Below, piece after piece: positions 10,761-64,000 of a stretch of 64,000 nt of DNA (its first letter is position 1; each line of letters begins with the position of its first letter). Source of the stretch: Phytoseiulus persimilis (Eukaryota > Arthropoda > Arachnida > Mesostigmata > Phytoseiidae); contig CM075104.1 in assembly GCA_037576195.1 (NCBI GenBank), forward strand, positions 1,804,775-1,868,774, read 5' to 3'. The position numbers were made by a program, and so were the translations under genes. The notes under the pieces were generated by a model. The model did no database searches and was not told the DNA's origin. It saw only the letters and a program-made list of their open reading frames with translations.

Positions 10761-10879
10761 TTCGGAACCGTCGATGTGGGTGATCCCTCTCAGTACCCTT
10801 TATTCACCTGAATGGCTTCCACACGGGAAGGACCACAAAACGTGATGTTCTGCTTACTACCATCTCTTCGAACGAGTAC

Positions 10880-30097: not shown

Positions 30098-32068
30098 GGA
30101 GTGATTCCTATCTGACCATAACTTCTCAATTCTGGAGGGGTGATTCCGAAACCAATCTGGCCATAACTTTTCAAGTCTGGAGGGGTGATTCCGAGACCAA
30201 TCTGACCATCACTTTCCAAGTCTGGAGGGGTGATTTCGAGGCCAATCTGAGCATTACTGTCCAACTCTGGAGGGGTGATTCCGAGACCAATCTGGCCATC
30301 ACTTTCCAAGTCTGGAGGGGTGATTCCGAGACCAATCTGACCATAACTTTTCAAGTCTGGAGGGGTGATTCCGAGGCCAATCTGAGCATTACTGTCCAAC
30401 TCTGGAGGGGTGATTCCGAGACCAATCTGACCATCACTTTCCAAGTCTGTATGGGTGATTCCGAGACCAATCTGACCATCAGTTTCCAACTCTGGAGGGG
30501 TGATTCCGAGGCCAATCTGAGTATTACTGTCCAACTCTGGAGGGGTGATTCCGAGGCCAATCTGAGCATTACTGTCCAACTCTGGATGGGTGATTCCGAG
30601 GCCAATCTGAGCATTACTGTCCAACTCTGGATGGGTGATTCCGAGGCCAATGTGAGCATTACTGTCCAACTCTGGATGGGTGATTCCGAGGCCAATCTGA
30701 GCATTACTGTCCAACTCTGGAGGGGTGATTCCGAGACCTATCTGACCATTACTTTCCAAGTCTGGAGGGGTGATTCCGAGGCCAATCTGAGCATGACTGT
30801 CCAACTCTGGAGGGGTGATTCCGAGACCAATCTGACCATTACTTTCCAAGTCTGGAGGGGTGATTCCGAGACCAATCTGACCATCACTTTCCAAGTCTGG
30901 AGGGGTGATTCCGAGACCAATCTGACCATAACTTTTCAAGTCTGGAGGGGTGATTCCGAGGCCAATCTGAGCATTACTGTCCAACTCTGGAGGAGTGATT
31001 CCGAGGCCAATCTGAGCATTACTGTCCAACTCTGGAGGGGTGATTCCGAGGCCAATCTGACCATAACTTTTCAAGTCTGGAGGGGTGATTCCGAGGCCAA
31101 TCTGAGCATTACTTTCCAAGTCTGGAGGGGTGATTCCGAGACCTATCTGACCATAACTTTCCGAGTCTGGAGGGGTGATTCCGAGACCAATCTGACCATA
31201 ACTTTTCAAGTCTGGAGGGGTGATTCCGAGACCAATCTGAACATTACTTTCCAAGTCTGGAGGGGTGATTCCGAGGCCAATCTGAGCATCACTTTCCAAG
31301 TCTGGAGGGGTGATTCCGAGACCAATCTGACCATAACTTTTCAAGTCTGGAGGGGTGATTCCGAGGCCAATCTGAGCATTACTGTCCAACTCTGGAGGAG
31401 TGATTCCGAGGCCAATCTGAGCATTACTGTCCAACTCTGGAGGGGTGATTCCGAGGCCAATCTGACCATAACTTTTCAAGTCTGGAGGGGTGATTCCGAG
31501 GCCAATCTGAGCATTACTTTCCAAGTCTGGAGGGGTGATTCCGAGACCTATCTGACCATAACTTTCCAAGTCTGGAGGGGTGATTCCGAGACCAATCTGA
31601 CCATAACTTTTCAAGTCTGGAGGGGTGATTCCGAGACCAATCTGAACATAACTTTCCAAGTCTGGAGGGGTGATTCCGAGGCCAATCTGAGCATTACTGT
31701 GCAACTCTGGAGGGGTGATTCCGAGACCAATCTAGCCATCACTTTCCAAGTCTGGAGGGGTGATTCCGAGGCCAATCTGACCATAACTTTTCAAGTCTGG
31801 AGGGGTGATTCCGAGGCCAATCTGAGCATTACTTTCCAAGTCTGGAGGGGTGATTCCGAGACCTATCTGACCATAACTTTCCAAGTCTGGAGGGGTGATT
31901 CCGAGACCAATCTGACCATAACTTCTCAAGTCTGGAGGGGTGATTCCGAGACCAATCTGACCATGACTTTCCAAGTCTGGAGGGGTGATTCCGAGGCCAA
32001 TCTGAGCATTACTGTCCAACTCTGGAGGGGTGATTCCGAGACCAATCTGAGCATTACTGTCCAACTCT
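30098..32068 (-). repeat. 45-bp minisatellite, ~44 units
   Basis: Highly regular 45-bp units (GGAGGGGTGATTCCGAGACC followed by an AATCTGACCAT-type part). Subfamilies alternate: TGACCATAACTTTTCAAGTC, TGAGCATTACTGTCCAACTC and TGACCATCACTTTCCAAGTC. Blocks of several units are repeated in the same order (e.g. about 30960-31260 and 31320-31660), showing higher-order duplication. The period is 15 codons, and both strands carry uninterrupted frames of over 560 codons through the array. This follows from the repeat lacking stops and is not evidence of a gene. Confidence 0.95.
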
Positions 32069-32306: not shown

Positions 32307-34890
32307 TCACGTCTGGCCTGCCGGGGGTTCAGCCTGGCCCGTAGAGACTGTCGTTCTTTGCCGGATGAGCGCGTCCTTCTTCTTGAGGATACATGCTATT
32401 TTACGGCTTATTTTGTTCCACTCTTCCTCCGATTCAAGCATCTTCTTAACCAACTCCGGCCCCGTGGTCGTCCCAAAAGCAACTCTCTGCCCTGCAAAGG
32501 CCGGGCAAACGAACACTGTGTGATGTACGTCGTCTTCTTCCGCGCTGTCACAGTTCACGCATGTCGGGCTCTGTCTCTCCCTGATGAAGTGTAGATACTT
32601 CTCGAGGTTGCCGTGGCCCGTGAATAACTGTGACGTGTAGTAGATAACTCGCCGAAATCTCTCTCGCACCATCTCTTGACATCTGGTATGCATGAGTGGG
32701 TCCATCTTCCCGTGGTTGCAGCGTTCCAGGCACGTTGCCACTTCGTGTAGCTTTCTTCTTTCATGTCTTCTTCCGAACGAGCTTCTTCGTCGTCGGTGTC
32801 GGAATCGTATGGCCGGTCCCTGATCCTCGAGGCCCTGTACAGCTCGGTTCTTTCCTCTGCGAGGATCGGCCATGGGAGTGTCCGTGCCAGAGCCAAGACC
32901 GCTGCAGTGGAGACCGTGCGGTAACAGCGACTTATTCTGATGGCCGTGAGTCTCTGTGCTTTTTCGAGCATGTCTCTATTTTTCTGCAGTCTTAATGCCG
33001 TAGGTGCCCACACTGGCGCTGCGTACAAGGCGATTGACTGTGCTACCGTAGCCAGGACTCGCCGCTGAGCCTCCGTCGCTCCGTATGTGCGGGGTAGGAT
33101 CTTTCCTATGTCCGTGGCGGCTTTTGTTGCGCGCTGTGCGACACACTTGATATGTTCCACGCCTGTTGCTTCTGCCTGAAGTCTCACACCTAGGTATCTC
33201 GCTGAGCGACTTATAGTCACCGGGTGTCCTTCGACTAGGACCCGTAGAAGTCTCTCCTTTCTTCCTTTGAGCAGCATCACAGATTCGGTTTTTTCTGAGG
33301 CAAGAGAGAGTAGGTTTTCCCTCATCCATGCCGATATACTGTCCAGTGCGTCTTGTGTGATCTCCTCAAGTTCTTGGATCGACTTGGCAACGGTTATGAG
33401 TGCTAAATCATCGGCATAGGCTATTGTGGATGCTCCCTCTGGCAGTCGTATGCGAAGTACGTCATCGTAACCAATATTCCAGCGGGTCGGCCCTAGTACT
33501 GAGCCCTGGGGAACCCCGGCGGACATCTGATGTTTCGTTCCCTCTTCGTCGATCACATAGCGTGCTTGAAGATAAGAGCCGATTATTCTCCGCAGGTAAG
33601 GTGACACACCTCTCCTCTTCAGACTGTCAAGGATTACGCTCCACTCTATGGAGTTAAAAGCATTCTTATCGACCAATAGGACGATGAGGCATCTGTTTCT
33701 TCGCTGCCACGGTCTTTTCTTTTCCTCCAGGACGATTGACATTACTCTCTCAATCGCCGACATGGTCGAGCGCCCCAGTCTGAAACCGAATTGGCTTTCG
33801 GACAGTCTATCCTCCTCTTCTAGTTCGTTTTGCAGTCTTCGGTTAATGACGATCTCCACTCCCTTCGCCAGAGTACGGAGGAGGCAAATCGGCCGAAATG
33901 CATCCTTTTTGCCGGGCTTTGGGATGAGAACAAGATTCGCCGTTTTCCATGATTGGGGGAAAACGCCGCTTTGCAAGATACTCTCCACCAGCTCGCCCAC
34001 AATTCCGGGCCACCGCGAGAAGAGAATCTTTGTGATTTCTGGCGGAATCCCGTCCGGACCCGGGGCCTTGCCCGCTGCGATTCTTTCTGCAGCTGCAGTA
34101 ACTTCGCTTCGTAGGACGGGCGGAACTTCTGTCTCCTGGAATAGTTGGTTGACAGCTACGTGGATCTTTTCCGTCGGGGTCTTCAATCTTTTCTGTCCTA
34201 ATTTTCCGCGAACAATCTTATAGGGAAGTCCCCAGATATCTTCGCGCGAGTTCTCGCCAGCTTGCTTTCTTCGCGTTCAGGATTCCTATGTGGAGTTTTC
34301 GCTTGGCCTCGCAGTAGTTTCTCCGGTACGCGTCTGTCGTCTCGGGTTCTGCGGTCGCGGTTCTTCTCGATCGTGTGAAGCTCCTTCTTGCTCTAATGCA
34401 CTCCCTTCTGAGGCGAGACACCTCCTCTGTCCACCAGTACGAGGGTTTCTTCTCACGCAAATGTGGGGAGATCCGGGGGAGCGCCTCGGAGCATGCTTCT
34501 TTGAGCATGTCGCTGATGATATGTTCATCAATTGGTAAGTCCATCTCTCGGATTTCTTTGCATTTACGATCGATATGCGTAAGGAGGGTCTCGCGGTTCA
34601 AATTCCTCGCAGTGAACCTTCGGCCCTGCTCATCAGGCTTCTTTGTCATGGTCAACTAAAGGTTGTATTCTATATACAGGTGGTCGCTCATAGACTCCAG
34701 ATCATCCCTGACCCTCCATCCCGTTATGTCGGTTGGAGCCGTTGTTGCGAGTAAGTCTATGAACGAGCATGATTGTCCCCTGCTGAGGGTCGGGATTTTT
34801 CCGTCATTGATGATGAAGAGTCCGCTTCTTGCAAACATCTCCTCGAGCTCCCTTCCTCTGGTGTCTGTTTCTGTGCCGCCCCTAGAGTTG
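32307..34890 (-). pseudogene. R1/Jockey-type non-LTR retrotransposon ORF2, 5'-truncated
   Basis: Minus strand. The C-terminal end of the endonuclease is at 34838-34656 (SDHLYIEYNL), the linker typical of this group at 34655-34218 (KPSYWWTEEVSRLRRECI), and RT at 34186 to about 33000. RT motifs include GKAPGPDGIPPEI, FRPICLL, SQFGFRLGRST, LVDKNAFNSIEW, GVPQGSVLGP and the catalytic AYADDLALI. The C-terminal part includes a CCHC knuckle (CVNCDSAEEDDVHHTVFVC) in the frame 32873-32307, shifted relative to the RT frame near 32700. The RT frame is open for 543 codons. There is also a frame break around 34200. It begins inside the endonuclease, so it arrived as a truncated copy, and the frame breaks make it inactive. 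Confidence 0.88.
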
Positions 34891-35949: not shown

Positions 35950-36975
35950 TCATTCCTCATCCGTGGTGTCGCTCTCGTCTTCGTTATTGTTCTTCAAGCC
36001 TTTCGCCTTGAGGTATTCTTCCCAGGGCTTTTCCTTAGAATAATAGTTCTTCAAAAAGAGGTAATTCACAAACCTATCGTCGCTTTGCCGCTCCTGGTTG
36101 TACCGACGTGCGAGCCGCGCCTTGCTGAAGGCTCGCTCGGAGGGTACACTGGTGGGTTGGATAACACCCATCGTCTTGTGGATCTCTTGTGGGAACGCTT
36201 TCTTGCCTTCCTGATGACGTTCCATAAGAGCCTCGGGCGAAGCGTTCTCACCGCAGCGTCCGTCAACCTTCTCGTCCTCGTCTCGATGTTTCAGGTCCTC
36301 GAAACGATCGCCTGTTAGGGGCATGGGCGCGCTGGGATGAGTCCCGCGAGATCGCAAGAATACCGCGATCTCGTCCTTGATGTCGCCGCAGGCCGCGAAC
36401 GAGCTGATGATGGAATCGCCGTAATCAATGACCAATTCCTCTGTGGCTTCTCCGAGCCAATTGTCGATATCGGTTCTTCCGTCCCTCTTGCGGAGATAGC
36501 GCGCGAGTCGCGAAGCGACTCCTCGCCGCTGCAGAATTCGATAGCACATATTCCGATACAGCCGTGAGCTGAATTCTGATCCGATTCCTTTGAGGCTTTC
36601 AAGCATCATCTGCAAAACAAAATTAGCTCCGCTAGTCCCGCGTGCATCCCAGACGGGGATCTATCGCATCTCTTGAGTACCATAGCGCAAAACCCGCCCT
36701 GGACTCAACTCACCTCGAGCGCGATGTCCGCCATGCGCAGCGTGATATCGCCTTCCGACAGCCGTTTAGATGCGATCTCGACGTGGGCTAGGCATTCCAC
36801 GATGCCTTCAATCCGGTGGAACTCTTCTTCGGTGATGGGGAAAGTGCCCCTCTTCCGCGCCTGGCTATAAAACCGCGATAGGGCGCTTTTCAGAACAACG
36901 AAGTTCTTGAGCATGTGCTGAGTAGAATTCCAACGCGTCCGGACATCGAGAGCCAACTTCAGAGAGAAATCGCGA
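35950..36975 (-). pseudogene. hAT transposase, C-terminal exons
   Basis: Minus strand. A frame at about 36975-36710 carries KLALDVRTRWNSTQHML (the RW motif of hAT transposases) and ends at ADIALE followed by a GTGAGT donor. After an intron of about 90 bases the frame at 36615-35950 continues with RILQRRGVASRLARYL, an acidic linker, and the dimerisation block VIQPTSVPSERAFSKA. The acceptor is CAG near 36610. Everything upstream of the RW block, including the first catalytic Asp and zinc finger, has been replaced by Copia sequence on the opposite strand. It is related to, but distinct from, the hAT at 44-46 kb. Confidence 0.83.
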
Positions 36976-37223
36976 AGTACGAAGGTACCCCTACGCTCTT
37001 CGTTGATAATGCTGGTGCCGTACGTCTCTCGGAAAATCCAGAGTTTCACAGGAGAACGAAGCATATAGGGATCCGTCACTTCTTCGTTAGAGAAAAAGTT
37101 CTCGAGAAGGAAATAATAGTGCTTCCAATTCCCACGGAAAGACAAGTCGCCGATATCTTGACCAAGCCGCTTGAGAGGATTAGACACAATTATCTGTGTA
37201 AACTCATGGGAATGTCCTGAGAA
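36960..37223 (+). pseudogene. Copia RNase H C-terminal fragment
   Basis: The plus frame contains TPTLFVDNAGAVRLSENPEF, then HRRTKHIGIRHFFVRE, then TERQVADILTKPLER, the standard C-terminal end of Copia pol, and stops at 37220. The overlap with the hAT frame at 36915-36975 is in antisense. The actual junction is near 36975. Confidence 0.85.
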
Positions 37224-37455: not shown

Positions 37456-38408
37456 ACGTTCGATCACTTTTTCTTAGTCAGTGTGTGGCTACCATAATTT
37501 CTTGTGCGATTGGCTGCGTTGCTTCGGAGACTCCGAATCAAAACAAGTATACTGAAATTTCCGGCAGGGTTCCAGCGACCTGGTTCATCCATCTGGACTA
37601 TGTGTCGCGATTTTCGAATGAGCGAGGTCGCGAATAACGAAGCGCGAATAAGTAAGGGAAGACTGTAGCTCTTACGTGAGTCTTCCGCCAACGGTCAAAC
37701 CTCGGAGTTCGGCTACTCGGGGGAACGGGAGAGGGGCAGTACCGAGATCAACATTTCATAAAGCGGGTCAACATCACTGCCGTGAAATCACGGACTGGAA
37801 ATGGAGTTTCCTCACTACGGTTGTATAGCGACGAATCCAGTTCGATTGAAAGCCCCTCCCCTCCATGATTTTTCCTTCACGAAACGGATTCCGAGGGAAT
37901 GACCTGGAACCATGGTGAACGGCCGAGAAGTCTATCGTTCTCCTCATCTGATTTCCTTGTTTCAACCTGCTATGATGGAACCCCAAGTTCTATTTCCCTC
38001 CACACTCTGATGGGGGGTGTGAGGGCACTGGGCTCGGAGGGCTCCAAAAATACGCCTCACCGTACATTCAACGCAACTTGATTCCTTCGGAAGATTGGAA
38101 CGAGTGTCGTATTATACCAGGAACGTTCCTCGAGCGGGTCTTAGAGATCTCTCTCGGAACGCAGCGATCTTCGGAATAAGGAACCCGAGAACTATCGGAG
38201 TTCTATTCACTGTGCTGCCATAGGACTCGACCCCGAAGATCATCGGAATAAGGAACCCGAGAATTCTTTCAGTTCTGTTCGCGACGGCGAAGCTTCGTCC
38301 TCGAGATGGCCGCTCCGGAGACGTGCCGAGAAACGCATGCATCCATTTGCGCGTGCAGAGCGGAAACGTGCGATAAACAAGCAGCGCTGTTAGCTTATAG
38401 AGTCCAGC
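37456..38408. other. No gene recognised
   Basis: Contains a short direct duplication (CGGAATAAGGAACCCGAGAA at about 38172 and 38244) but no convincing frame. Confidence 0.4.
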
Positions 38409-38688
38409 TCGGCTCGTTGGCCGTGTGGCATAAACCAACGCCTCAGGTGCCACGCTAAGCTAGCAATCGCGGGCTCGATCCCCGGCCGACAACAAAGATT
38501 TCTTATGTGGTAAAAAGAGGATTTAATTTGTATCAGAAATAAATCTGAACCATCTTAAGACCCAAGCCCACCGCCCGCAATGGGATTTGCGAGGCGATAG
38601 GGAGTGTTACTGAAGCAATACTTAATGTGATTCCGGGACACTCCTGAGGGCTGGCTGAGAGGTTCAGCCGGAAAACAAAAAAAAAAGA
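38409..38688 (+). mobile_element. tRNA-derived SINE, copy 1
   Basis: A tRNA-like head has box A (TGGCCGTGTGG, 38418-38428) and box B (GGCTCGATCCC, 38472-38482). The spacing fits a class II (Leu/Ser-like) tRNA with a long variable arm, and a GCCGACA-type acceptor end follows. A tRNA-unrelated body of about 190 bases ends in an A-rich tail (AAAACAAAAAAAAAAG). The tail runs directly into the 45-bp minisatellite. Confidence 0.7.
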
Positions 38689-39826
38689 TTGGTCTCGGAA
38701 TCACCCCTCCAGAGTTGGAAAGTAATGTCTAGATTGGTCTCGGAATCACCCCTCCAGAGTTGGAAAGTAATGGCTAGATTGGTCTCGGAATCACCCCCCC
38801 CCCCCAGAGTTGGGAAGTAATGGCCAGATTGGTCTCGGAATCACCCCTCCAGAGTTGGAAAGTAATGGCTAGATTGGTCTCGGGATCACCCCTCCAGAGT
38901 TGGAAAGTAATGGCTAGATTGGTCTCGGAATCACCCCTCCAGAGTTGGAAAGTAATGGCTAGATTGGTCTCGGAATCACCCCTCCAGAGTTGGAAAGTAA
39001 TGGCCAGATTGGTCTCGGAATCACCCCTCCAGAGTTCCAAACTAATGGCTAGATTGGTCTCGAAATCACCCCTCCAGAGTTGGAAAGTAATGGCCAGATT
39101 GGTCTCGGAATCACCCCTCCAGAGTTGGAAAGGAATGGCCAGATTGGTCTCGTAATCACCTCTCCAGAGTTGGGAAGGAATGGCTAGATTGGTCTCGGAA
39201 TCACCCCCCCAGAGCTGGAAAGTATTGGCTAGATTGGTCTCGGAATCACCCCTCCAGAGTTGGGAAGTAATGGCTAGATTGGTCTCGGAATCACCCCTCC
39301 AGAGTTAGAAAGTAATGGCTAGATTGGTCTCGGAATCACCCCCCCCAGAGTTGGAAAGTAATGGCCAGATTGGTCTCGGAATCACCCCTTCAGAGTTGGA
39401 AAGTAATGGCTACATTGGTCTCGGGATCACCCCTCCAGAGTTGGAAAGTATTGGCTAGATTGGTCTCGGAATCATCCCTCCAGAGTTGGAAAGTAATGGC
39501 TAGATTGGTCTCGGAATCACCCCTCCAGAGTTGGAAAGTAATGGCCAGATTGGTCTCGGAATCACCCCTCAAGTTGGAAAGTAATGGCTAGATTGGTCTC
39601 GGAATCACCCCTCCAGAGTTGGAAAGTAATGGCCAGATTGGTCTCGGAATCACCCCTCCAGAGTTGGAAAGGAATGGCCAGATTGGTCTCGTAACCACCT
39701 CTCCAGAGTTGGGAAGGAATGGCTAGATTGGTCTCGGAATCACCCCCCAGAGTTGGAAAGTAATGGCTAGATTGGTCTCGGAATCACCCCTCCAGAGTTG
39801 GAAAGTAATGGCTAGATTGGTCTCGG
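38689..39826 (+). repeat. 45-bp minisatellite array after SINE copy 1
   Basis: About 25 units, GATTGGTCTCGGAATCACCC then CTCCAGAGTTGGAAAGTAATGG-type, with frequent C-homopolymer length changes (e.g. near 38800) that shift the frame. It ends abruptly in GTCTCGGACCCC at the second SINE. Confidence 0.93.
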
Positions 39827-40087
39827 ACCCCGCTCGCTGGCCGGGTGGTATAAACCAACACTGGGTGCCACGCTAAGCTAGCAATCGCGGGACAGAAATT
39901 TCTTATGTGGTAAAAAGAGGATTTAATTTATATCAGAATTGAATCTGAACCATCTTTAGACCCAAGCCCACCGCCCGCAATGGGATTTGCGAGGCGATAG
40001 GGAGTGTTACTGAAGCAATACTCAATGTGATTCCGGGACACTCCTGAGGGCTGGCTGAGAGGTTCAGCCGGAAAACAGAAAAAAAAG
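39827..40087 (+). mobile_element. tRNA-derived SINE, copy 2
   Basis: About 95% similar to copy 1 over the body and tail. Box A is TGGCCGGGTGG. The box B region is deleted (GCGGGACAGAAATTTC), so this copy could not be transcribed from its own promoter. It again ends in an A tail fused to the 45-bp array. Confidence 0.7.
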
Positions 40088-41089
40088 ATTGGTCTCGGAA
40101 TCACCCCTCCAGAGTTGGAAAGTAATGGCCAGATTGGTCTCGGAATCAACCCTCCAGAGTTGGAAAGTAATGGCCAGATTGGTCTCGGAATCACCCCTCC
40201 AGAGTTCCAAACTAATGGCTAGATTGGTCTCGAAATCACCCCTCCAGAGTTGGAAAGTAATGGCCAGATTGGTCTCGGGATCACCCCTCCAGAGTTGGAA
40301 AGGAATGGCCAGATTGGTCTCGTAATCACCTCTCCAGAGTTGGGAAGGAATGGCTAGATTGGTCTCGGAATCACCCCCCCAGAGTTGGAAAGTAATGGCT
40401 AGATTGGTCTCGGAATCACCCCTCCAGAGTTGGAAAGTAATGGCTAGATTGGTCTCGGAATCACCCCTCCAGAGTTGGAAAGTAATGGCTAGATTGGTCT
40501 CGGAATCACCCCCCCAGAGTAGGAAAGTAATGGCCAGATTGGTCTCGGAATCACCCCTCCAGAGTTGGAAAGTAATGGCTAGATTGGTCTCGGGATCACC
40601 CCTCCAGAGTTGGAAAGTAATGGCTAGATTGGTCTCGGAATCACCCCTTCAGAGTTGGAAAGTAATCGCTAGATTGGTCTCGGAATCACCCCTCCAGAGT
40701 TGGAAAGTAATGGCCAGATTGGTCTCGGAATCACCCCTCCAGAGTTGGAAAGTAATGGCTAGATTGGTCTCGGAATCAGCCCTCCAGAGTTGGAAAGTAA
40801 TGGCTAGATTGGACTCGGAATCACCCCTCCAGAGTTGGAAAGTAATGGCTAGATTGGTCTCGGGATCACCCCTCCAGAGTTCCAAACTAATGGCTAGATT
40901 GGTCTCGAAATCACCCCTCCAGAGTTGGAAAGTAATNNNNNNNNNNNNNNNNNNNNNNNNNNNNNNNNNNNNNNNNNNNNNNNNNNNNNNNNNNNNNNNN
41001 NNNNNNNNNNNNNNNNNNNNNNNNNNNNNNNNNNNNNNNNNNNNNNNNNNNNNNNNNNNNNNNNNNNNNNNNNNNNNNNNNNNNNNNNN
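40088..41089 (+). repeat. 45-bp minisatellite after SINE copy 2, ending in an assembly gap
   Basis: Same unit as 38689-39826. The order of variant units near 40200-40380 repeats that near 39030-39200. Bases 40937-41089 are 153 Ns, a gap whose true length is unknown. Confidence 0.93.
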
Positions 41090-41808
41090 GGAGTCCGGAG
41101 GAGTTTGATTTCTGTTGGCGCAAATCTCCTTATCACAAACCCGACTGAAATGTTGAACGCTCTAAATCACTGCTCGAAACAGACCCTCATTGATATAGCG
41201 GAGCGGAATCACACATTCAAAAGGCCCCAGACTGGTTCCAGCCTGACCCCGAAACAATCAAACCACATCCGTTTGAGCCGTTCTGGAGAAAAGCCGTGAA
41301 ATCCCATAGACAACGGCATTCACTTCCTTAGGGCATCGACAGACGACCACCCGTCTGATCGTCTGCCTGTATTCTGTTATTTGATTATATTTCGACCCGA
41401 CGGCGTGCTCGGTGCGCGACGTTCGAAGTCAGCTAAACATTCGTGAAACCGTGAGTTTCGTTGAAATTGATCGTATTCCTGGCGAAGCTCTCTCTCGGCT
41501 CGTTAACTCGACGATCTAGCAACTATTCGTGGATCGGAGATACTGTGCATATCCATATCTTACATAATCCTGAGCTTGTTAGGGCATTGCCATAATGGGC
41601 CTGGTCCTGGCTCGAGGCCATATCACGGGGATTTCGTGCTCGCTCAAGTTGTGTCCTTGTGTCCCGACCTCTACAGACTACATTCAGCACTGGGAATCAT
41701 CAGAGTACGCGTTATTTCGAGCGTTTCCAGTAGCTGAAGGCTCCCAGCTTCCGCTGAAAAGCTCGCCCGAGGGAATTCTCCGATCGATTGTTTTTCCCAT
41801 CGTTTTGC
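41090..41808. other. No gene recognised
   Basis: Plus-strand frames here have no family signature. Upstream exons of the hAT-type gene at 42.4-46.4 kb may lie here, but none was identified. Confidence 0.35.
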
Positions 41809-42152
41809 TCAAATACAATCGCTCTCGGGCACGTCTCTCATACTCCTTCCAAATGTTACGGATTTCCCTCTCGCATCCAGCGGTTTCGTCCTTATCAAAC
41901 TCGGTCGAAGTTCGATGGTCGCGCGGAGAGCCTCGAGTTTCTGCCTGAGCGATTCTTCATCTCCTTCCGATTTTTTTTCAGATATTATTAACGATAATTC
42001 AGCCGTCATCTCGGCGATTCGTTCATGGTGAGTTCAATGTTCTCCAACCGTGCTGTCGGACTCGGATCTTTCTTGATCTTGTCCATCCACTTTCTCCTAG
42101 CGTCTAAATTTGAAGACTTCGGTCTGGAATATCGCTTCGAATTAGATGGATC
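41809..42152 (-). pseudogene. Coiled-coil frame, unknown, one frame break
   Basis: From an ATG near 42152 on the minus strand, a Lys/Arg/Ser-rich segment (MDPSNSKRYSRPKSS, then LDARRKWMDKIKKDPSPTAR) passes, after a frame change near 42005, into a heptad-like charged helix (MTAELSLIISEKKSEG then ESLRQKLEALRATIEL). The two frames overlap at the break. Composition resembles retroelement Gag or a DNA-binding protein N-terminus, but no family is recognised. Confidence 0.3.
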
Positions 42153-42394
42153 CATCTTCCCAATGGGTCAGGAAACAACTGGTTAGTAACTTTTTGCAGT
42201 AGGTATTAACCTCGTATCCTACAATGTTTGACAGATGCTCAAGCGCAGCAGCCGTGAGTCGTAGTTTGTGTTACTTGACGAAATAAATCATATTTCCTCA
42301 GCCTAGCTCTCTCGGTGATGATGTTCCCTGATGTGGCGTGATGTCGCAGTCCCTCCAGAATCGGCGGCGATCTGAATATCATCCTGCATTTCAG

Positions 42395-43980
42395 AAGCGT
42401 TGAATTGCTCCCACTCCGATGAGGAGAATGCGGCCCCTCGCCCCAGCATCCGCAAGAGGAAACGTAGGACAGCTGGTTGTCTGAAGCGTCGAGGTGAGCA
42501 TTATGATTTGCTGCGGCTCAAAAATCATTTCCATTCTAATTCTTCACTCACTTCACACACTGTTCGATCTGTCCAACATCCGGCACTGGAACTAGCCCGG
42601 GCACTTCTTCCGAGTTTGAGGGTGAGAGTACAGCATCCCAAGATTTCCCTCATGGCTTCTGGAAGTGCAATTATTTCGCCGACCTGCATTCTCCCTGAGC
42701 TGGTGAACTATAATGAAACCCTCATTCCAGAAAACTATCATAGAGGCCAATCGAGCCAGGGAAATGAAACTGAGGTTGCTCTCTCGAGACGAGAGAACAA
42801 GTGCCAACCTCGTCAAGGAACTTCCACGGAGTATAAAGGTGAGAGGACAGGCTCCCAGAATTCCCTCCAAAGCTCCTGAAAGTACAATAATCGCCCCGAT
42901 GTACATGATTCCTCAATAGATGATCTCCAACGAAACCCTCATTTCAGAAAACCCTCATAAAGCCCAATCAAGCGAGGAAACCGAGGCTACTGAGGCAGAG
43001 GCTCCTGCCGAGTGTGTGGGTGAGAACATAGCCTCCCAGAATTTCGTCATAACTCCTTACAGTGCAAAAGTTTCCCCGATGCACATTGTCCCGGAATGGA
43101 TGAAATCTAACGAAACCCTCATTTCAGAAGACTCTCATGGAGACCGAACGAGCGAAGAGAGTAGAAGAAAGAAGCAATGCCAGCCTCGTCAAGGAACTTC
43201 TACGGAGTGTAAAGGTGAGACGACAGCGGACAACCTCCCGGAATTCCCTCAGAAGCTCCTCCAAGGACAATTAATCTCTCGACCTTGATTGTTCTCAAAC
43301 GGATGGGGTCTAATGAAAGCCTTATTCCAGAAAGCTATCGTAGAGGCCAATCGATCGAGGAAATTGAGGAGGATGCCCAGGCTTCTGAGGCAGAGGCTTC
43401 TGCAGAGTATGAGGGTGAGAAGATGGGCCTCACAGGATTTCCTCTATACTTTCCTGAAGTACAATCGTTTTCCCGATGTACATTGTAGCGGAATGGACGA
43501 AATATATGGAAAACCTCATTTCAGAATGCTCTCGTAAACACCAATCGAGTGACGACGATACTTCTTCCCCCCGGTGGAGGACACAACGCCGATCCCGCCC
43601 AGGAACTTCTGATGTTCACAAGAGTGAGGAGACAGCTTTCCACAATTTCTTTAACAGTCTCCGATAGCATAATTGATTGCCCTGTCTGTTCCGAGCGGTC
43701 ATTTCATTGCGCTCTCATGCATGTCATAGACAGATCACTGTTCGAAAAAGAGATGAAAATGAGAGCAAGCAGCAAGGTCCCCTGCCTCTTGATCCTGAGC
43801 GGAGTATTCCCAACGATAGTTCCATTGCAGAAGCTTCTGATAGAGACCGAGGGAGCATCGGCGGAGATGACACGAGCACTGCTCTAACAGGAAACAGGGA
43901 GTCGCGCGAACGGATATCTCCGACGGAAGTGGGGCATGAAGGTGGACAGAGGCGCTCAGGCCGCCCTCCGAAAGTCAAAG
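42395..43980 (+). CDS. Tandem phase-1 exon array of a hAT-type gene
   Basis: Seven exons each follow an AG and precede a GT: 42395-42493, 42731-42838, 42948-43019, 43128-43214, 43331-43414, 43525-43623, 43831-43980. Lengths are 99, 108, 72, 87, 84, 99 and 150, all multiples of three. Every exon starts with AA that completes a GAA codon from the preceding G, so all junctions are phase 1. The middle copies are clearly homologous: E-N/S-Y/P-HRGQSSEE..., with ends like RQGTSTEYK or AEASAEYE. Their introns (108-116 nt) are homologous too (GAAACCCTCATTTCAG acceptors). A degenerate unit lies near 42570-42622. The product would be a Ser/Glu/Arg-rich, probably disordered region. The last exon ends QRRSGRPPKVK, an AT-hook-like motif, and splices in phase to the BED-type exon at 44127. 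Confidence is for splicing structure, not for expression. Confidence 0.72.
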
Positions 43981-44126
43981 GTAAGGCACGAGCGCTGCCT
44001 GAACATCAGCACCCGAAACAAGAGCGCGGTTCCGGGTAATTTTATCTTGTCTCGCATACGATTGAAATAGTCCCTCCAATTTCGTGGTTCGGAATATCAC
44101 GGATTACAGTTTTTCTCCCATTCCAG

Positions 44127-44310
44127 ACGGCGTATGGCTGCAGTTTGTGCCTGCGGGATTCGAAACAGAAATGCAAGATTTGCGAGAAGATTATTACTAC
44201 AGTGAAGGGCACCAGATGGAAATTGGGAAACTCATGTTGCACTGCACGCTAAAATGGGGGAACGATCGGGTTCACAGGCTGAAAAGGCTACGATCGTATC
44301 TGGCCTTTTA
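44127..44310 (+). pseudogene. BED-type zinc-finger exon
   Basis: After a CCAG acceptor the exon continues the phase-1 frame as DGVWLQFVPAGF, the aromatic start of BED fingers. The Cys pair (QKCKICEKIITTVKG) is in the +1 frame, and a His-containing end (GKLMLHCTLK) is back in the first frame. The finger is therefore recognisable but interrupted by frame changes. BED fingers normally precede hAT transposase domains, and the downstream exons are hAT. Confidence 0.55.
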
Positions 44311-44472
44311 ACGACTCTCAACATTCCTTGTGGCGGGTTCAATAATCCTTTCGCCAAACGCTTGTTAGGCTGGCAAAACTCGGAACAATGAATGACACCA
44401 TCGCCCGGAGATTGACCGATGAGGCAGTTGTGTGAGTTCTGTTTTCACATGCAATTGCACATTACATATTAG

Positions 44473-46415
44473 GGGACGCATCTCGTAACCTGCTGCACCA
44501 GGGCGGCATCGAGGGGCGAGAATTCTCCAAAGTATCACTTCTCAGGGGGGCGAGGGCAATCGTGGCGGCTGATATCAAACTACCACAGGAAAAGAAAGCT
44601 ATTTTCACGCTGAGCGCGGATGAGTTGACGTGGGAACGCCGTAGATTCCCCGGTGAGTTCACTCGACACTTGATACATTCTTCTCGGGTATTTCCTACTC
44701 GTTTGACCCCCGAAGATCACGCTTACTGATTTCGGACATTCTGACATTTGTTTCAGGCGTGACGCTCCACTGCTCGGAAACCATACCGTGTATCAAGGAT
44801 AACTCAATTGAGCTTCTGTCGCGTTTTCGGAAACGCGCAACTGCAGAGAATCTGGGAAAATTCTTTTAGATGCTCTCGGTGAAATCGGACTTCGAATCAG
44901 TGATATTCGAGGACTGACGTCCGACGCAGCTGCGGTAATGAAGAAATTGGGTAGAATCTTGAAAGACTTAGCAGCTCCGAGACTTTTTTATGCCCAATTG
45001 TGTCTCGCGCATGGATTGGATCTGGCGTTGCGGGATGCATTCAAAGGGGAAGCTCGAGCAGAAAGTGTCGACTCCGAGGAGAATGCGGACTCGGATAGCT
45101 GGAAAATCGCAGGGATACTGAACTACGACAACGCGGAGCGATCTGAACTAGACCGTGAGTTTCCCAACGATTTTTTACATTTTTTAAGCTTCGTATCATT
45201 ATTTTCCATTCACTCCGACATCCTGGGTGATGCTGACTATCTTCTGAAATTTCCAGAAGTTCTCCAGGAGGAATTGACTGAAGAGGTCGCAACAGTGGGA
45301 CCGCCGACGTATCTCAGTGCCATTGGTCGGATCGTTGATAAAGCACGTGCTGAGGTCAAGACTTTTATAACGAGCCCCGCCCTGAACGACGAGTTCCGCG
45401 CGGCCTCCGGGGACAACGGGCCGAAACTGGTTCTAACCGTCGCGACGAGGTGGAATTCAACACTACGGATGTTGCGAAACTTCTTGACGCAAGGACACGC
45501 CTTGCGACGATACTACATCAGCCGGAAGTGTGTATTCCGCCTCTCTGCATCAGAGATAGAGTTGCTGAGGGAGGTCACGAACGCCTTACGCCACGTGGAG
45601 AAGGCGTGCCTGCGGCTCTCATCAAAAAGTGCAACGCTTAGACGAGCCGATTTGGCCCTTGAGGCACGATCCCATTGTCAATGAAATACATCAGAAGAGG
45701 ATAAGAAAATGAAAAAATAGGCAATGCTTCCACCTCGTGGTGACGATTGCAAACCCAAAATACTAAGCTTGCAATCATTTTCCTCAGGCGATGTTGAGTG
45801 CGCTGAGAGACGAATCCTCCGAGTTTGCGAAAACTCCATACCGCTGCCTCTGTACTAGAATACTGCAGAGACGAGGTGTTGCCTCCAGAGTTGCGCGATT
45901 CATTGGCAGGAGGGAAGAAGTCTCCACTCTGGATCGCTGGTTGGAGGAGATGCGCGCTCGGATCGTTGCGGAAGGAGATTCGAAGTTATCTCGTACCCCC
46001 CTCCCGGCCGGAAGCTTGTCAGAGGAGGTGGCCAAGCACCTCGAGAAGTCGACTCGTCGGGCGGCCGACTCTCTGCAGGGGGAGGAGGAGGGAAGGGATG
46101 AAGACCCTGACGTCTATGACATGTATGGAGAGCGAATGCTGGATCAGCAACTGCTCCTCGCAGTCGCTGATCCAGCATTCGCTCTCGCCCGCGACTTTGA
46201 TCAATTATCACAAGAAAGGGCTAGCAACCATTCCAGCTGTCCTAGTGCGCACTATGAAGCTGATCCAGCCCGCAAGTGTCCCCGCTGAGAGCGCCTTCAG
46301 CACCGCTCGGCACTTCCGACGGTATTGCCAGGAGAAGCAGATGACGAGAGATTCACCAGTTCTCCGCCTCGAAGGTGGACTCGAGCTTGGGAATATGGTG
46401 GCCCTTGGAATATGA
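44473..46415 (+). pseudogene. hAT transposase exons (RW and dimerisation blocks)
   Basis: Exon 44473-44652 (180 nt) is bounded by AG/GTGAGT and is phase 1 on both sides. Exon from 44757 (GVTLHCSETIPCIK) breaks at a stop near 44868. Reading resumes shifted by one base (LDALGEIGLRISDIRGLTSD), then AAAVMKKLG, LCLAHGLDLALRDAF, to a phase-1 donor at 45155. Exon from 45257 carries VATRWNSTLRMLRNF and LRRADLALE. The next donor is GC rather than GT. Exon from 45788 carries RILQRRGVASRVARFI. The final block LIQPASVPAESAFSTARHFR is in another frame after a 21-bp inverted repeat. Block order is complete for a hAT transposase C-terminal two thirds. At least two frame breaks make it a probable pseudogene. 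Confidence 0.82.
46128..46186. repeat. Perfect 21-bp inverted repeat inside the hAT frame
   Basis: Arms GAGAGCGAATGCTGGATCAGC (46128-46148) and its exact reverse complement (46166-46186). The 17-nt interval adds ACTG/CAGT pairing, leaving a 7-nt loop. It sits where the hAT reading frame changes. Confidence 0.95.
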
Positions 46416-47156
46416 TTCATCGCGTTCGAAATTTGATGAATGTACAAGAATATCCACGGAAAGGAGATAATCCGCTGAGCTGAGCGGCTGGCCCGTTCAA
46501 TGAAACCCGAAAGACTAGCAAAAATCTAGATTTCATCATCATCAACGCATCGAAAGCGGAAAATGATCGTACACTGCAATCAATGAGTGAAATTGTTTGG
46601 GAATGATCTGCGTGGTTCCCGTATTGAGCGGACGAATATTCGAATCCATGCTTAACGGGCGTTTTCTCTCCATTCGCGTACTTCCGATGAGTGGTCCAGC
46701 CAGCGGAGACCATCGACGCATTTTCAGCGAATTCCCATGTTTGACGAAGCCGAGAGATCGTTCCTTCAAGGACCTGGGAGGACACGCTCCACCATCGTAT
46801 GAGTGGGCTCTCCGCGGACGCAGCTGAGTGTATTGTGGGTATGATGAAAGCACACAGGGACGACCCTGCGCTGGGGCCCAATTGACGCTGGCGCCCAATT
46901 GACGCCAGTGCCCAACCGACGCCGGAGCCCAATTGACGTGCATCGGGCCCAATAGACTCGCATTGGCCGGAGACAATTTATCCCGTTACAACACGTGTTA
47001 TCGTTGCAAGCATCTTGCTTGCGCTCCCAAATAGAAAGACACTGCTCCGACGACGATCATGTTTTTGGTCATTCTGTGCTCTGCCGGGAGGCATCGCTCC
47101 TCGAAACTAGCTTGTAGAGTCCTTCATCCACGGCTTGCTGGTAATCCAGGCTTCAC
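46416..47156. other. No gene; short 17-bp tandem repeat at 46871-46950
   Basis: Between 46871 and 46950 there are about five imperfect units of CCCAATTGACGCTGGCG. Otherwise no convincing frame. Confidence 0.55.
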
Positions 47157-51416: not shown

Positions 51417-54400
51417 TTAAGATGGTTCACAGGGGACGTCGGGTACCTCTAGAGGGATCAACAATTGCGCGGCTCGACGGGACTCATACCCGTTTGCGAA
51501 ACGAATACTATACGTTCTAATGGCTCCATCCCAGCCGGGATGGCCCTGGAGCACCCTCACTAGATTCCACGTCCGACGGGGGACGTTCGATCCGTCAGTG
51601 ATGACACGAGCTCTACCCCGAGCGTCGAGGTTCGCGGAACGCAACAGCAACAAGTAGTTACGCTGCCAGCGAGTGCAGAGGGCCCTGAAGTAGCTCGTTC
51701 GATGGAGTAAGGAGCGTCGCAGATCTCCTGCTTCGTCTGGCGGCTGGACAAACCCATTCGTTCCCAAGGTGTCCAAGGGCGACAACGCACAAAGCGCTGT
51801 TGATGGTGGGCCGCCACGAATGAACTGAGATGGCGTTATGGCTCGGGGTTCGTCGGCTTCAGCGTACGTGTAGGAAGGCGATCGATTGTTGATGACGGCA
51901 GATAGCTCTCGGAGGATCGTTCTGAGCTCTTGTTTTCGCGAGGGAGCCCTTGACCAACCCGACCAAACGTTCAACGCATCCACCCCTCCAGGGCGCTCGA
52001 GGACAATTGAATGACCAATCAATACGCTGTCGAGCGAGGAATTCGCGCACTTCGGGATCCCGGAAGGAGTTGAACCAACGCCGGATATCGGCCGAAGCAC
52101 GCACGAATGATCTCTCGTTATCGGAGACAAACCGACACGCCGGATACTCCGCGATGAATCGGCGAAGCGCGAGGTGGGTCTGCACTGCCGTCATGTCTGG
52201 AACGAGTTCAAGATGGATTGCACGGATACTTGTGAGCAGTGCGATGTAATTCTTGCAGGTACCCTCGCGTGAGCGAGTATAGAAAGGACCGCAAAAATCC
52301 ACGGCGGTTGATGCGAAAGGAGCGACCATTGAAGAGCGCTCGAGGGGTAACGGGGCCTGAACCTGATCCGCCGTTGACCCATGTAAACGCCTGCAGGCGA
52401 CACAATTACGAAGAAGCCTCCTGATCACCTGTCTGCCTCGCAAAATCCAGAACCGGCGCCGGATCGAGTTGAGCACGGCGGTGACTCCCAGATGTACGTT
52501 CGTCCGGTGGTGATGCAGCACGAGCAACGTGGCGAGAGGAGAAGAGCAAATGATTGGGTTCATTTCGTCGAAGGTAAAATCAGGACTCTGGGTCAGTCTC
52601 GTGCAGCCTCGCAGTAATCCGTTGTTGTCCATGAGCAATTGGTACGAAGCCAGGCTTGAGGACTGCAGAGGGCGCTCGCCGGCGAGTGTGGCGCTTATCT
52701 CATCCGCAAAATGAGTCGATTGAGTCTACCTGAGGAGCACCAGCTCGGCGCGGGAGCGAAGATCAGCTTCCGAAGAGGGGGGTAGGCGCCGGCAGCGTTG
52801 GTGAAGCGGAGAATATTTGCCACCTTTCGCACGGCCTTTTCCAGGCTCCCAAAACGCTCCAAATCAACCATCTGCGACGGGGTGATTACAGGAACGACAA
52901 TCGGCCGAAGTTCCACGCCAGCAGATTCGGAATGATGGCCACCGATCGGCAGACGCCTCGCCGGGCGCCGATCCTCCGGCTCGGCCAGCCAAGGTGGTCC
53001 GTTCCACCAATCGGAGTTCGAGACCAAATCGCAAACCGAGACCCCTCTCGAAGCGATGTCCGAAATGTTTGACTTCCCGTCCACGTGCCGCCAGTCCTCC
53101 GGCTTTGAGAGCCTCTGGATCTCGAGGACTCGGTTGCAGACAAACGTCTTCCATCGTGATGGGTCCCGGGCGGTGCAGCAGTAGAAAGCGACAGTGGAGT
53201 CGGTGTAATGGGTCACTCGGTCGATCCGGACGCTGAGGCGCTCCTCGACGAAAAACCTCAGTCGGGTGGCCAACAATGCCGCCATGAGCTCGAGTCTCGG
53301 CAGGGTAATCCCGTCTCGCGTAGCAACTCGCGACTTGGACATGACGAAAACACAATCGCTGCCTCCATCAGCATAGATCAACTGCAAGTACGCAACGGTA
53401 GCATACGCCTGTTCGCTTGCATCGCCAAAGATGTGGGGTTGGCGCGAGACGACAGTTCTGCCCGGGCTTCCGTACAGGCGAGGAATGCGCAGCGATGACA
53501 ACTCGGGAATCTCTTCGGCCCACGCAACAAATTCGCGGAGCACCGATCCCGAAACGGGATCATCCCATCGGAGCGATTTGGAGTACAATTTCCTCAACAG
53601 TAGCTTCCCCCTAACTGTATAGGGGATGAGCCAACCGACGGGATCGAAAATGGCAGCGACAACTCGGAGTACATTCCGCTTGGTGACGCTCCTGAGCTCA
53701 GCCGCTTTTTCTACAATGTGGGCGAGCTGGAATTGGAAGGCGTCCTCCGCTGGAGACCAGGCGATTCCAAGCACCTTGAGCAGTCCTGTCTCCACGAGGC
53801 CCCCGGAAACAGCAGAGGACAGCGAGCCCTCGATGTGCGCGATTACAGCTGAGGAATTCGATTTCCATTTGCTGAGTGCCATGTTTGCTGACTGCATCGT
53901 TGGCACCAATCGGTCGATGAATTGAATGGCCTCTGCATCTGATGAGAAACTTCGGAGCATGTCGTCGAAATAGAAGAATGAACCAAAGTCCATGGCGCGG
54001 TATGGGTCCACTCGGTGAAAATGTTCTCTCAAGACGGCAGCGAGGAGGAATCCACTGGGGCTGGCGCCCCACGTGACCCTGTTCATTTGATAACAGCGAG
54101 GATAGGGATCGTCTGGGCCCTGCCAGAGGTAGCGGAAGTATGGGCTATCCTCCGGCGCGAGGTTGATCGTCATATAGGCTTGAGCAACGTCGACCGACAG
54201 CGCCACCGGTTGCAGCCAGAAATTGAGATTGGACCGGGAAGCAGCTGACAGTTCAGGGACATCTCACCCGGTGCAGATGCGGAGCAGTCGAAAACGATTC
54301 GCCACTTGTCGCCGCCGGCGTCGGGTAATAACCTGACGATGAGGCATGTAGAAAGTGTGACTGCGGGCACTACCGGCAGTGATGTCGACTCCCGGAACCT

Positions 54401-57293: not shown

Positions 57294-58748
57294 TTGCCTA
57301 CGGGTTACGTCGAGGTAGTTTCAGACGAATGCGTGGCAGTAGGTAGAATCGTTCTGGATAGGCGGTCTGAGAAAACTCTCATCTCCAATAAGTTTGCGAA
57401 TTTGTTGGGAACGAAGGAGGTTGGCCCCGAAAACTTCTATCTGCAGTCAGCAGGTCAGGCGCACCCTAAGAAGTGCAAAGGGAGGATCGTAGAGATCACG
57501 CTGAAGAGTAGATTCTCGGACAACCAAATGGTCATTTACGCGACAGCGTTGCCGAACGTGGTGGAGGGTACTCTTCCGGAGGCTAACTTCGCGGGAAACT
57601 TAGAGCCGATTGCGGATCGGAATGAGGGAGCGTGGTCGGCAGAGATCTGTATGTTGGTCGGGGTAGACTACTTATATCCCATCGTAGGAACGAACACCAA
57701 AAAGGTATGGGGATGCGTTGCGATCGAAACCCTGTTCGGGTACTTTCTATGCGGAACGGGCCAACATCAGGAAATTAAATTGAACCCAGCTCTCGTGAAA
57801 GTGATCCAACAAAAGAGAAAGGCATGGAACGGCAGAGCGGAAAGCCAGCGAGGCGTCAGCGCGACGGTGTCTCTCGCGGCGACAGTTCGTTCGAAATATG
57901 ATCCAGAGGACATCTCGTTCCTGTGGGATACGGAGGTCCTCGGGATCGAACCGTATTTCGAGGAAAATGATGAGGTGCCTAACGAAGAGTTGACGGAATT
58001 CGTTCGTACAACTACTCAAAGAAAACCCGATGGGAGGTATATTATTCATTTGCCGTTCAAACCGAACAAAGACACGTTGGGAGACAACCGCGAGCTGACG
58101 CTGCGGCGTCTGAAAAGTTTTTTGGCCCAGACAAGGAAAAATCAAGCGCTCTTAGAGGCACTTGATGCCGAAATGGTGGACCTGTTGGATCAGGGTTTCA
58201 TTGCGCTCGCGGAATCCCCGAAATCGGGGGAACAATGTCATTATCTACCGCTGCTCGCGGTGTTAAAAAAACAAGCTTCGGCGGAAGCCAAGATGAAAGT
58301 CAGAGTGGTGAACGATGCAAGTGCACGTTCGAGGAACGAAGCTGGCTTGAACGACGTGTTGTTTCAAGGCGAGAATCTCATCGCGGACATTGTCTCAGTC
58401 ATACTCCAATTCCGGCAGCTCCCGATTGCTATCACAGCTGACATAGAGAAAGCATACCTTCAGTTCGAGATAACTCCGGAACATAGCAAGTTTCTGAAAT
58501 TCTTGTGGCCGATAGGCATAAGTAAGAATCCGAGAGCCCCACTCAGGGAAATGCAATCGTGTAGGTTATCTTTCGGGCTGGTCAGTGCGCCTTACCAGCA
58601 TTGTGCAGGCATCAGGCTCCATTTGGAGAATGAAATCAGGAATCGGCCGCAGGACAAGGAGTTACTCGAGTTCGTGAAAAAGTATTTTTATGTAGATGAT
58701 TTTATCGCAGGCGCAGAGAACGCCGGGAGCGGAGAAAAAGTTGTTTAA
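57294..58748 (+). pseudogene. BEL/Pao protease and reverse transcriptase (plus strand)
   Basis: 484 codons. The protease-like N-terminus has VLDRRSEKTLISNKFANLLG where DSG/DTG is expected, so the catalytic motif is altered (D-R-R). RT follows: VRVVNDASARSRNEAGLND, ITADIEKAYLQFEI (first Asp), LSFGLVSAPY, and FYVDDFIAGAE (YVDD) near the end. A stop at 58746 interrupts RT just after the catalytic motif. Reading resumes in another frame toward 58917. Confidence 0.85.
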
Positions 58749-61677: not shown

Positions 61678-64000
61678 TCGAGGAGTATGATCAGATCGGT
61701 GTCGTAATCACTCCTACAGATTCGGAGAAGCATGGTCAGATTGGTCCCGGAATCACCCCTCCAGGTTTTGGAAAGTATGGCTAGATTTGTCCCGAGATCA
61801 CCCCTCCAGACTTGGAAAGTGATAGTCAGATTGGTCTCGGAATCACCCCTCCAGACTTGGAAAAGTATGGTCAAATCGGTCCCGAGATCACTCCTCCAAA
61901 CTTGGAAAGTAATGGCTAGATTGGTACCGGAATCACCCCTCCAGAGTTGGAAAGTAATGGCTAGATTGGTACCGGAATCATCCCTCCAGAGTTGGAAAGT
62001 AATGGCCACATTGGTCTCGGAATCACCCCTCCAGAGTTGGGAAGTGATGGCCAGATTGGTCTCAGAATCACCCCTCCAGAGTTGGGAAGTAATAGCCAGA
62101 TTGGTCTCGGAATCACCCCTCCAGAGTTGGAAAGTTATGGCCGGATTGGTCCCGGAATCACCCCTCCAGAGTTGGAAAGTAATGATCAGATTGGTCTCGG
62201 AATCACCCCTCCAGAGTTGGAAAGTAATGCTCAGATTGGTCCCGGAATCAACCCTCCAGAGTTGGAAAGTAATGGCCAGATTGGTCTCGGAATCACCCCT
62301 CCAGAGTTGGAAAGTGATGGCCAGATTTGTCTCGGAATCACCCCTCCAGAGTTGGGAAGTAATGGGCTTATTGGTCTTGGAATCACCCCTCCAGAGTTGG
62401 AGAGTAATGGCCAGATTGGTCACAGGATCACCCCTCCAGAGCTGAAAAGTAATGGCCAGGTTCGTCTCGTAATCATCCCTCCAGAGTTGGAAAGTAATGG
62501 CCAGATTGGTCTCGGAATCACCCCTCCAGAGTTGGGAAGTAATGGGCTTATTCGTCTTGGAATCACCCCTCCAGAGTTGGAAAGTAATGGCCAGATTGGT
62601 CACAGGATCACCCCTCCAGAGTTGAAAAGTAATGGCCAGGTTCGTCTCGTAATCATCCCTCCAGAGTTGGAAAGTAATGGCCAGATTGCTCTCGGAATCA
62701 CCCCTCTAAAGTTGGAAAGTAATGGCCAGATTGGTCTTGGAATCACCCCTCCAGAGTTGGAAAGAAATGGCCAGATTGGTCTCGCGATCCCCCCCCAGAG
62801 TTGGAAAGTAATGCTCAGATTGCTCCCGGAATCACCCCTGCAGGTTTGGGAAGTAATGCTCAGATTGCTCCCGGAATCATCCCTCCAGAGTTGGAAAGTA
62901 ATGGCCACATTGGTCTCGGAATCACCCCTCCAGAGTTGGGAAGTGATGGCCAGATTGGTCTCAGAATCACCCCTCCAGAGTTGGGAAGTAATAGCCAGAT
63001 TGGTCTCGGAATCACCCCTCCAGAGTTGGAAAGTTATGGCCGGATTGGTCCCGGAATCACCCCTCCAGAGTTGGAAAGCAATGGCCGGATTGGTCTCGGA
63101 ATCACCCCTCCAGAGTTGGAAAGTAATGGCCGGATCGGTCTCGGAATCACCCCTCAGGGGTTGGAAAGTGATGGCCAGATTGGTCTCGGAATCACTCCTC
63201 CAGGGTTGGAAAGTAATGGCCAGATTGGTCTCGGAATCACCCCTCCAGAGTTGGAAAGTAATGGCCAGATTGGTCTCGGAATCACCCCTCCAGAGTTGGG
63301 AAGTAATGGGCTTATTGGTCTTGGAATCACCCCTCCAGAGTTGGAAAGTAATGGCCAGATTGGTCACAGGATCATCCCTCCAGAGTTGGAAAGAAATGGC
63401 CAGATTGGTCTCGGAATCACCCCTCTAAAGTTGGAAAGTAATGGCCAGATTGGTCTTGGAGTCACCCCTCCAGAGTTGGAAAGTAATGGCCAGATTGGTC
63501 TCGCGATCCCCCCCCCCAGAGTTGGAAAGTAATGCTCAGATTGCTCCCGGAATCACCCCTCCAGGTTTGGGAAGTAATGCTCAGATTGCTCCCGGAATCA
63601 TCCCTCCAGAGTTGGAAATTAATGGCCACATTGGTCTCGGAATCACCCCTCCAGAGTTGGGAAGTGATGGCCAGATTGGTCTCGGAATCACCCCTCCAGA
63701 GTTGGAAAGTAATGGCCAGATTGGTCTCGGAATCACCCCTCCAGAGTTGGAAAGTAATGGCCAGATTGGTCTCAGAATCACCCCTCCAGAGTTCGAAAGT
63801 AATGGCCAGATTGGTCTCGGAATTACCCCTCCAGAGTAGGAAAGTAATGGCCAGATTGGTCTCTGAATCACCCCTCCAGAGCTGGAAAGTTATGGCCAGA
63901 TTGGCCCCGGAATCACCCCTCCAGAGTTGGAAAGTAATGGTCGGCTTGGTCTCGGAATCACCCCTCCAAAGTTGGAAAGTAATGTCCAGATTGGTCTCGC
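61678..64000 (+). repeat. 45-bp minisatellite array running off the window
   Basis: More than 50 units. Blocks of variant units recur in order (e.g. 62340-62520 with 62520-62700, and about 61990-62200 with 62890-63100 and 63610-63760), indicating multi-unit duplications of 180, ~700 and ~900 bases. Two minus-strand and two plus-strand frames stay open for hundreds of codons. Sequence is still repeat at base 64000. Confidence 0.95.

Follow-up and report, generated by a model that had tools for sequence, protein, structure and literature searches.

A predicted N-terminal row of tandemly duplicated phase-1 exons in a decayed hAT transposon copy of Phytoseiulus persimilis

How did a row of seven short segments, each bordered by AG and GT, come to stand in front of a BED/hAT transposase gene, and could it have belonged to that gene? 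The row lies in a stretch of 64,000 nucleotides from Phytoseiulus persimilis (hereafter the window), for which a first-pass annotation had proposed that one exon-intron unit multiplied into consecutive phase-1 exons. We consider it very probable that the window holds a truncated, decayed hAT copy whose transposase gene carried an N-terminal row of tandemly duplicated phase-1 exons. The seven segments exist in the window with the lengths that annotation had reported (Table 1), and a check of lengths and borders confirmed that they are AG/GT-bordered and open in phase 1. A rule-based chain search of both window strands (YAG acceptor with at least 8/13 pyrimidines, GTRRG donor, exons of 48–201 nt, introns of 70–260 nt; exons open and running from phase 1 to phase 1) returned exactly these seven as its longest phase-1 chain, and the next-best chains had length 1. 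The longest chains in 200 first-order Markov sequences of 64 kb, searched on one strand in phase 1, had length 1 (71 sequences), 2 (120 sequences), 3 (8 sequences) and 5 (1 sequence). The exact chain length depends on the rule, because moving the pyrimidine window by one base broke the chain to 4 (Markov sequences then gave 1–2, n=20), and the same search in phase 0 also yields a chain of 5 in the array. On these sequence patterns we treat the array as predicted exons, putatively joined by splicing.

The finer claims about the array held in part. Exons 2–6 do begin by completing a GAA codon, as had been said of all seven, but exon 7 would start with AAA since exon 6 ends in A. The array introns measure, in order, 237, 109, 108, 116, 110 and 207 nt, so that the range of 108–116 nt given earlier describes the middle four but not the outer two. 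A Pfam scan of the seven exon peptides matched no family. A candidate 19-nt ATG exon lies at 42235–42253 of the window and is absent from the closest sister copy, C1.

One repeated unit gave rise to exons 2–6 with their introns and to the beginning of exon 7, in the order A-B-A-B-A, and comparison of the window with itself revealed a higher-order repeat of ~398 bp at 70% identity. Type A is marked by the peptide ..QPRQGTSTE.K in exons 2 and 4, with a diverged form in exon 6, and type B by ..EAEA.AE in exons 3 and 5. A profile of the five intron-exon units matches 5 times in the window and 5 times in C1, 4 times plus a weak fifth in a second copy (C2a), and at two partial places in a third (C2b); the 5' end of exon 7 with the tail of its upstream intron matches it weakly (E 0.004). 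The multiplication of one exon-intron unit is thus supported by homology that spans exon and intron, with neighbouring predicted exons homologous together with their introns and sharing one symmetric phase. Aligned at the nucleotide level, the five units show exon gap runs of 36, 21, 24 and 9 nt, each divisible by three, and intron gaps of 7 and 1 nt; a further 25-nt gap, with which the first unit opens, is an artefact of where the unit was cut. That exon gaps alone come in threes hints at frame-keeping, the events being few and partly non-independent.

The simplest history would be one duplication, divergence and then duplication of the A-B pair. The ancestral transposase N-terminus would have comprised phase-1 symmetric exons: an acidic/basic exon, an AT-hook exon and then a BED exon. 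Tandem duplication may have copied the 5' portion of the AT-hook exon with its upstream intron, initially as a single unit, from which types A and B arose, and later as the A-B pair of ~398 bp. The outcome would be a row of phase-1 exons adding frame-neutral, probably disordered Ser/Glu/Arg segments before the AT-hook/BED DNA-binding part, and because the exons have phase 1 at both ends the array could grow without breaking the protein. We infer both the order and the source of these duplications.

A DNA search with the whole array gave four other matches at three places among the best candidates scored (C1; C2a, in two pieces; and C2b), all of which carry further parts of the hAT family. The C1 copy is 94.6% identical over window 41090–46364 and belongs to a structurally complete element of ~7.5 kb on another chromosome (C1:2068309–2075802; L006/L007), with terminal inverted repeats of 377 bp at 81% identity. 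Read by eye from the inverted repeat, this element ends in TAGA(A/C)ATGCCTTCCC and is flanked by TGCATTCC/TGCATTCT, a 7/8 target-site duplication; an automated scan for terminal inverted repeats with an 8-bp target duplication found nothing in C1rc 4576–5600 / 10760–11700. Because of its terminal repeats and 7/8 target duplication we regard C1 as an inserted element. The chain rule finds eight exons in C1, with exon 1 taken as a 69-nt variant (the 99-nt form is also present). The extra one is a 63-nt open exon with an acceptor, the counterpart of window 42559–42621, and this acceptor is missing from both the window and C2a, each of them shorter at this point. C1 is also broken, with several frame breaks at places other than in the window. 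Frameshifts and lost splice sites within array exons, which the first-pass annotation had named as evidence against its proposal, do occur in C2a (frameshifts, lost donors and replacement of part of exons 2 and 3), whereas the array exons of the window and C1 are open. Matches to the terminal repeat also flank the C2a copy, and genome-wide there are at least 12 such matches, several of them where the array search found nothing. We considered an assembly artefact and rejected it because contigs C4, C1 and C2 each carry a copy of their own.

Table 1. Coordinates of the array, of the remaining gene parts and of the borders of the hAT copy (positions in the window)
Feature	Position	Strand	Remarks
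Run of N	40937–41089	.	hides left border of homologous stretch; 45-bp satellite to its left
5' part of hAT element	41090–42394	+	94% identical to C1 copy
Phase-1 exon 1 (predicted)	42395–42493	+	99 nt, acidic/basic; by eye like single linker exon of related L069 family
C1 unit-exon counterpart/remnant	42559–42621	+	acceptor missing here; 26 nt fewer plus changes vs. C1
Phase-1 exon 2, type A (predicted)	42731–42838	+	108 nt
Phase-1 exon 3, type B (predicted)	42948–43019	+	72 nt
Phase-1 exon 4, type A (predicted)	43128–43214	+	87 nt
Phase-1 exon 5, type B (predicted)	43331–43414	+	84 nt
Phase-1 exon 6, type A (predicted)	43525–43623	+	99 nt
Phase-1 exon 7 (predicted)	43831–43980	+	150 nt; AT-hook-like SGRPPKVK
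BED exon	44127–44431	+	305 nt, frame broken; shorter than in C1 by a net 2 nt, 2-nt gap near 44161
hAT exon	44473–44652	+	180 nt, leaves in phase 1; same junction in related L070 entered in phase 2
hAT transposase exon	44753–45154	+	borders approximate; frame broken near 44856
hAT transposase exon	45253–45663	+	borders approximate, open; 48–50% identical to L069, L070, L071 loci
C-terminal transposase pieces	45782–46361	+	two frames; true 3' end lost
High-copy repeat	46362–46946	.	many copies at 80–92%; occupies place of element's 3' part
3' subterminal segment	46946–47193	+	common to C1 (95%) and, at 97%, two C3 places; not followed by a terminal repeat in window

The identity of the gene was established through relatives. 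The related locus L069 has ends TAGACATGAATTT.. at both termini and CTCGTGAT on both sides (an 8/8 target duplication), and three of its transposase exons join into an open 476-aa frame. This core matched one protein, P0001, at 35% identity over 99% (among the 7998 candidates scored, those with most words in common); P0001 itself aligns with P0003 (24% over 88%) and with P0004 and P0005 (33–35% over 18%), and P0003–P0005 are listed with PF05699, which we take to be the hAT dimerisation domain. The window aligns with L069 in seven pieces at 36–72% identity, plus one weak, chance-like match, and we therefore regard the window gene as hAT by descent, through L069 and P0001 to the proteins listed with PF05699. 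No Pfam hAT domain was found in the window pieces, the L069 core or P0001; zf-BED scored E=0.003 (18 bits, below the 20.6 cut-off) in the related loci L056 and L075, and a CKIC pattern is visible by eye in the window. The assignment as a BED/hAT gene is thus borne out by homology and by the terminal repeats and target duplications of the sister (7/8 in C1) and the relative (8/8 in L069), the ends of the window copy itself being missing. Like Ac/Hermes-type members of the hAT superfamily, the family has an 8-bp target duplication, terminal inverted repeats, a candidate N-terminal BED-like exon and a transposase core; unlike them, it has seven to eight predicted phase-1 exons ahead of the AT-hook/BED part, and terminal repeats of ~370 bp in C1. 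A second, different hAT transposase fragment lies 4–5 kb upstream in the window on the opposite strand (35950–37010, minus).

These relatives also bear on the age of the array. By eye, L069 and L071 have one 102-nt phase-1 acidic/basic exon, followed by a BED exon that contains a GRP motif, and L070 has the same linker exon at 89 nt, through a 13-nt loss. L076 has a 129-nt phase-1 AT-hook exon before BED, and in L074, by eye, the AT-hook exon stands alone there. The 3.2 kb upstream of the relative at C4:4.96 Mb (L072) hold no array, and no row of phase-1 exons was seen by eye in L073. As the related hAT family has one such exon before BED, comparison of these gene structures makes it probable that the expanded array is the derived state.

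The window copy itself is defunct: a search of it for the terminal repeats of the hAT family found none, and its BED and transposase parts are frameshifted. The open transposase frame expected of an active hAT element is replaced by frameshifts and stops in both the window and C1; in C1 the BED exon has a stop codon early on. The phase-1 frame does run on into the AT-hook and BED exons, as had been proposed, but its continuation into the 180-nt exon is improbable, given that phase 2 is the exit phase of the BED exon in C1 (307 nt) and in L070 (418 nt) and of the last BED exon in L056 (310 nt); the BED exon of L071 (417 nt) does not fit this exit and reads as frameshifted. The earlier suggestion that splicing or copy number tunes a protein of variable length found no support, since the three copies have the same unit order with one exon more in C1, and the window copy is frameshifted downstream and without terminal repeats. 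Near the transposase end, at 46128–46186 of the window, there is a short inverted duplication (hairpin), one arm of which is absent, by eye, from C1.

Could the array instead belong to a living host gene? A functional or domesticated gene, whose alternatively spliced array varies the length of an acidic tether, would account for array exons that lack stops and frameshifts in both of two copies ~95% alike, and for the fewer changes between window and C1 in exons 1–7 than in introns (9/699 nt, with no indels, vs. 36/1034; Fisher p 0.005). However, 8/9 of these exon changes alter an amino acid and one is silent, the BED and transposase exons of both copies are broken, C1 has its terminal repeats and 7/8 target duplication, and C2a is broken; we rejected a functional host gene on the broken transposase and the terminal repeats of C1, and consider it highly unlikely. 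The comparison of exon and intron substitutions that the first-pass annotation had suggested gives weak or mixed signals, for the deficit of exon changes against C1 is not repeated against C2a, where exons (76/432) and introns (111/696) differ alike over well-aligned columns (p 0.51) and codon positions are flat (26/144, 26/143 and 24/145). Between units, codon positions are flat for A-A (35, 32 and 38 of 91), and read 3, 10 and 4 of 24 for B-B and 67, 62 and 52 of 143 for A-B; NG86 ratios are 0.35–0.48 for A-A and 0.51–1.18 for A-B, and the only B-B pair gives 1.00. Our reading is that frame and splice sites once mattered and amino acids hardly, in elements that have since died; plain neutrality after death also fits the same figures. 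The signs are of past frame-keeping, and none are of current constraint.

The flat codon positions between units and copies would also suit a decayed non-coding tandem repeat with a unit of ~200 bp, lying within the element and exon-like in looks alone, as would the phase-0 chain of 5 and an intron divergence between units that does not exceed exon divergence. Such a repeat leaves unexplained the recurring AG/GT borders, length changes in threes that are confined to exons, a chain longer than in random sequence, and the phase-1 exon that the L069 family has at the corresponding place, in frame into AT-hook and BED; we rejected a non-coding minisatellite on the frame-keeping and on this exon of the relative, and judge it improbable. 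There is also the question of whether the transposon captured a host exon rather than duplicating its own. Capture would suit a first unit of unproven origin and seven exon peptides without a Pfam match, but the unit is matched, albeit weakly, by the 5' end of the AT-hook exon together with the tail of its intron, and whole-array matches, among the best candidates scored, all sit with further parts of the hAT family, so that we give capture very little credence and favour duplication of the transposase gene's own exons.

The genome also has a related gene with tandem exons of another kind. This L075/L056 gene (L075 1134–1397; L056 from C3:23280513) has three tandem BED exons with homologous short introns, two of 264 and 234 nt running from phase 1 to phase 1, then one of 310 nt leaving in phase 2; its second BED exon holds a stop codon, and so this copy has decayed too. 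Nearby, L076/L061 has two tandem BED exons, both broken. Because L075/L056 has tandem BED exons and the window family has linker exons, N-terminal exons were probably multiplied twice, in two hAT lineages and with different exons, as far as exon structure can tell. ZBED genes offer a parallel: according to PMC3606216, ZBED6 and ZBEDX have 2 BED domains each and ZBED4 has 4, and these duplications are placed after domestication, from ancestral active transposons with one BED. The multi-BED ZBED genes (ZBED4, ZBED6 and ZBEDX) resemble the present case in that hAT-derived N-terminal modules were multiplied in tandem, but differ in that the multiplication here took place in transposase-type genes, introns included, and concerned linker exons in the window family and BED exons in L075/L056. 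If our reading holds, the N-terminus of a transposase gene has been altered within a mobile element through the multiplication of frame-neutral exons, and a related transposase-type gene has done the same with BED exons, in contrast to the ZBED multiplication that PMC3606216 places after domestication.

What the extra exons did for the protein can be put only conditionally. Most likely they would have lengthened a disordered, charged N-terminal tail before the AT-hook and BED finger. Hermes, according to PMC10368747, binds its left end via several BED domains and requires a sufficient number of them, and by analogy N-terminal modules could plausibly alter end recognition. A broader proposal, which we offer as a rather unlikely speculation, is that the N-terminal DNA-binding region of this hAT clade grows by repeated phase-1 exon duplication (tether exons in the window family, BED exons in L075/L056), that this sets the reach or number of DNA contacts to subterminal repeats, and that it may be switched by exon skipping. 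Runs of small exons are familiar from troponin T, in which the region of TNNT3 exons 4–8 is acidic and variable. These exons are alternatively spliced, as stated in PMC2447309. The run likewise lies near the N-terminus; here the host is a mobile element and the exons are predicted from sequence. A literature search on hAT elements or transposases with exon duplication or several BED domains showed no such array in titles and the openings of abstracts.

The window also holds other repeats. Large arrays of a 45-bp satellite (38686–40936, 30110–32068 and 61692–63999) are open in several frames and yield long repetitive ORFs. A tRNA-like SINE with an A-rich tail lies at 5848–6130 of L071, with GATGATGACCCT on both sides, and the same SINE, by eye, at ~38400–38690 (minus) of the window. 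Long ORFs at 32555–34186 (minus), 52695–54206 (minus) and 57294–58748 read like proteins of LINE and BEL/Pao-type retroelements.
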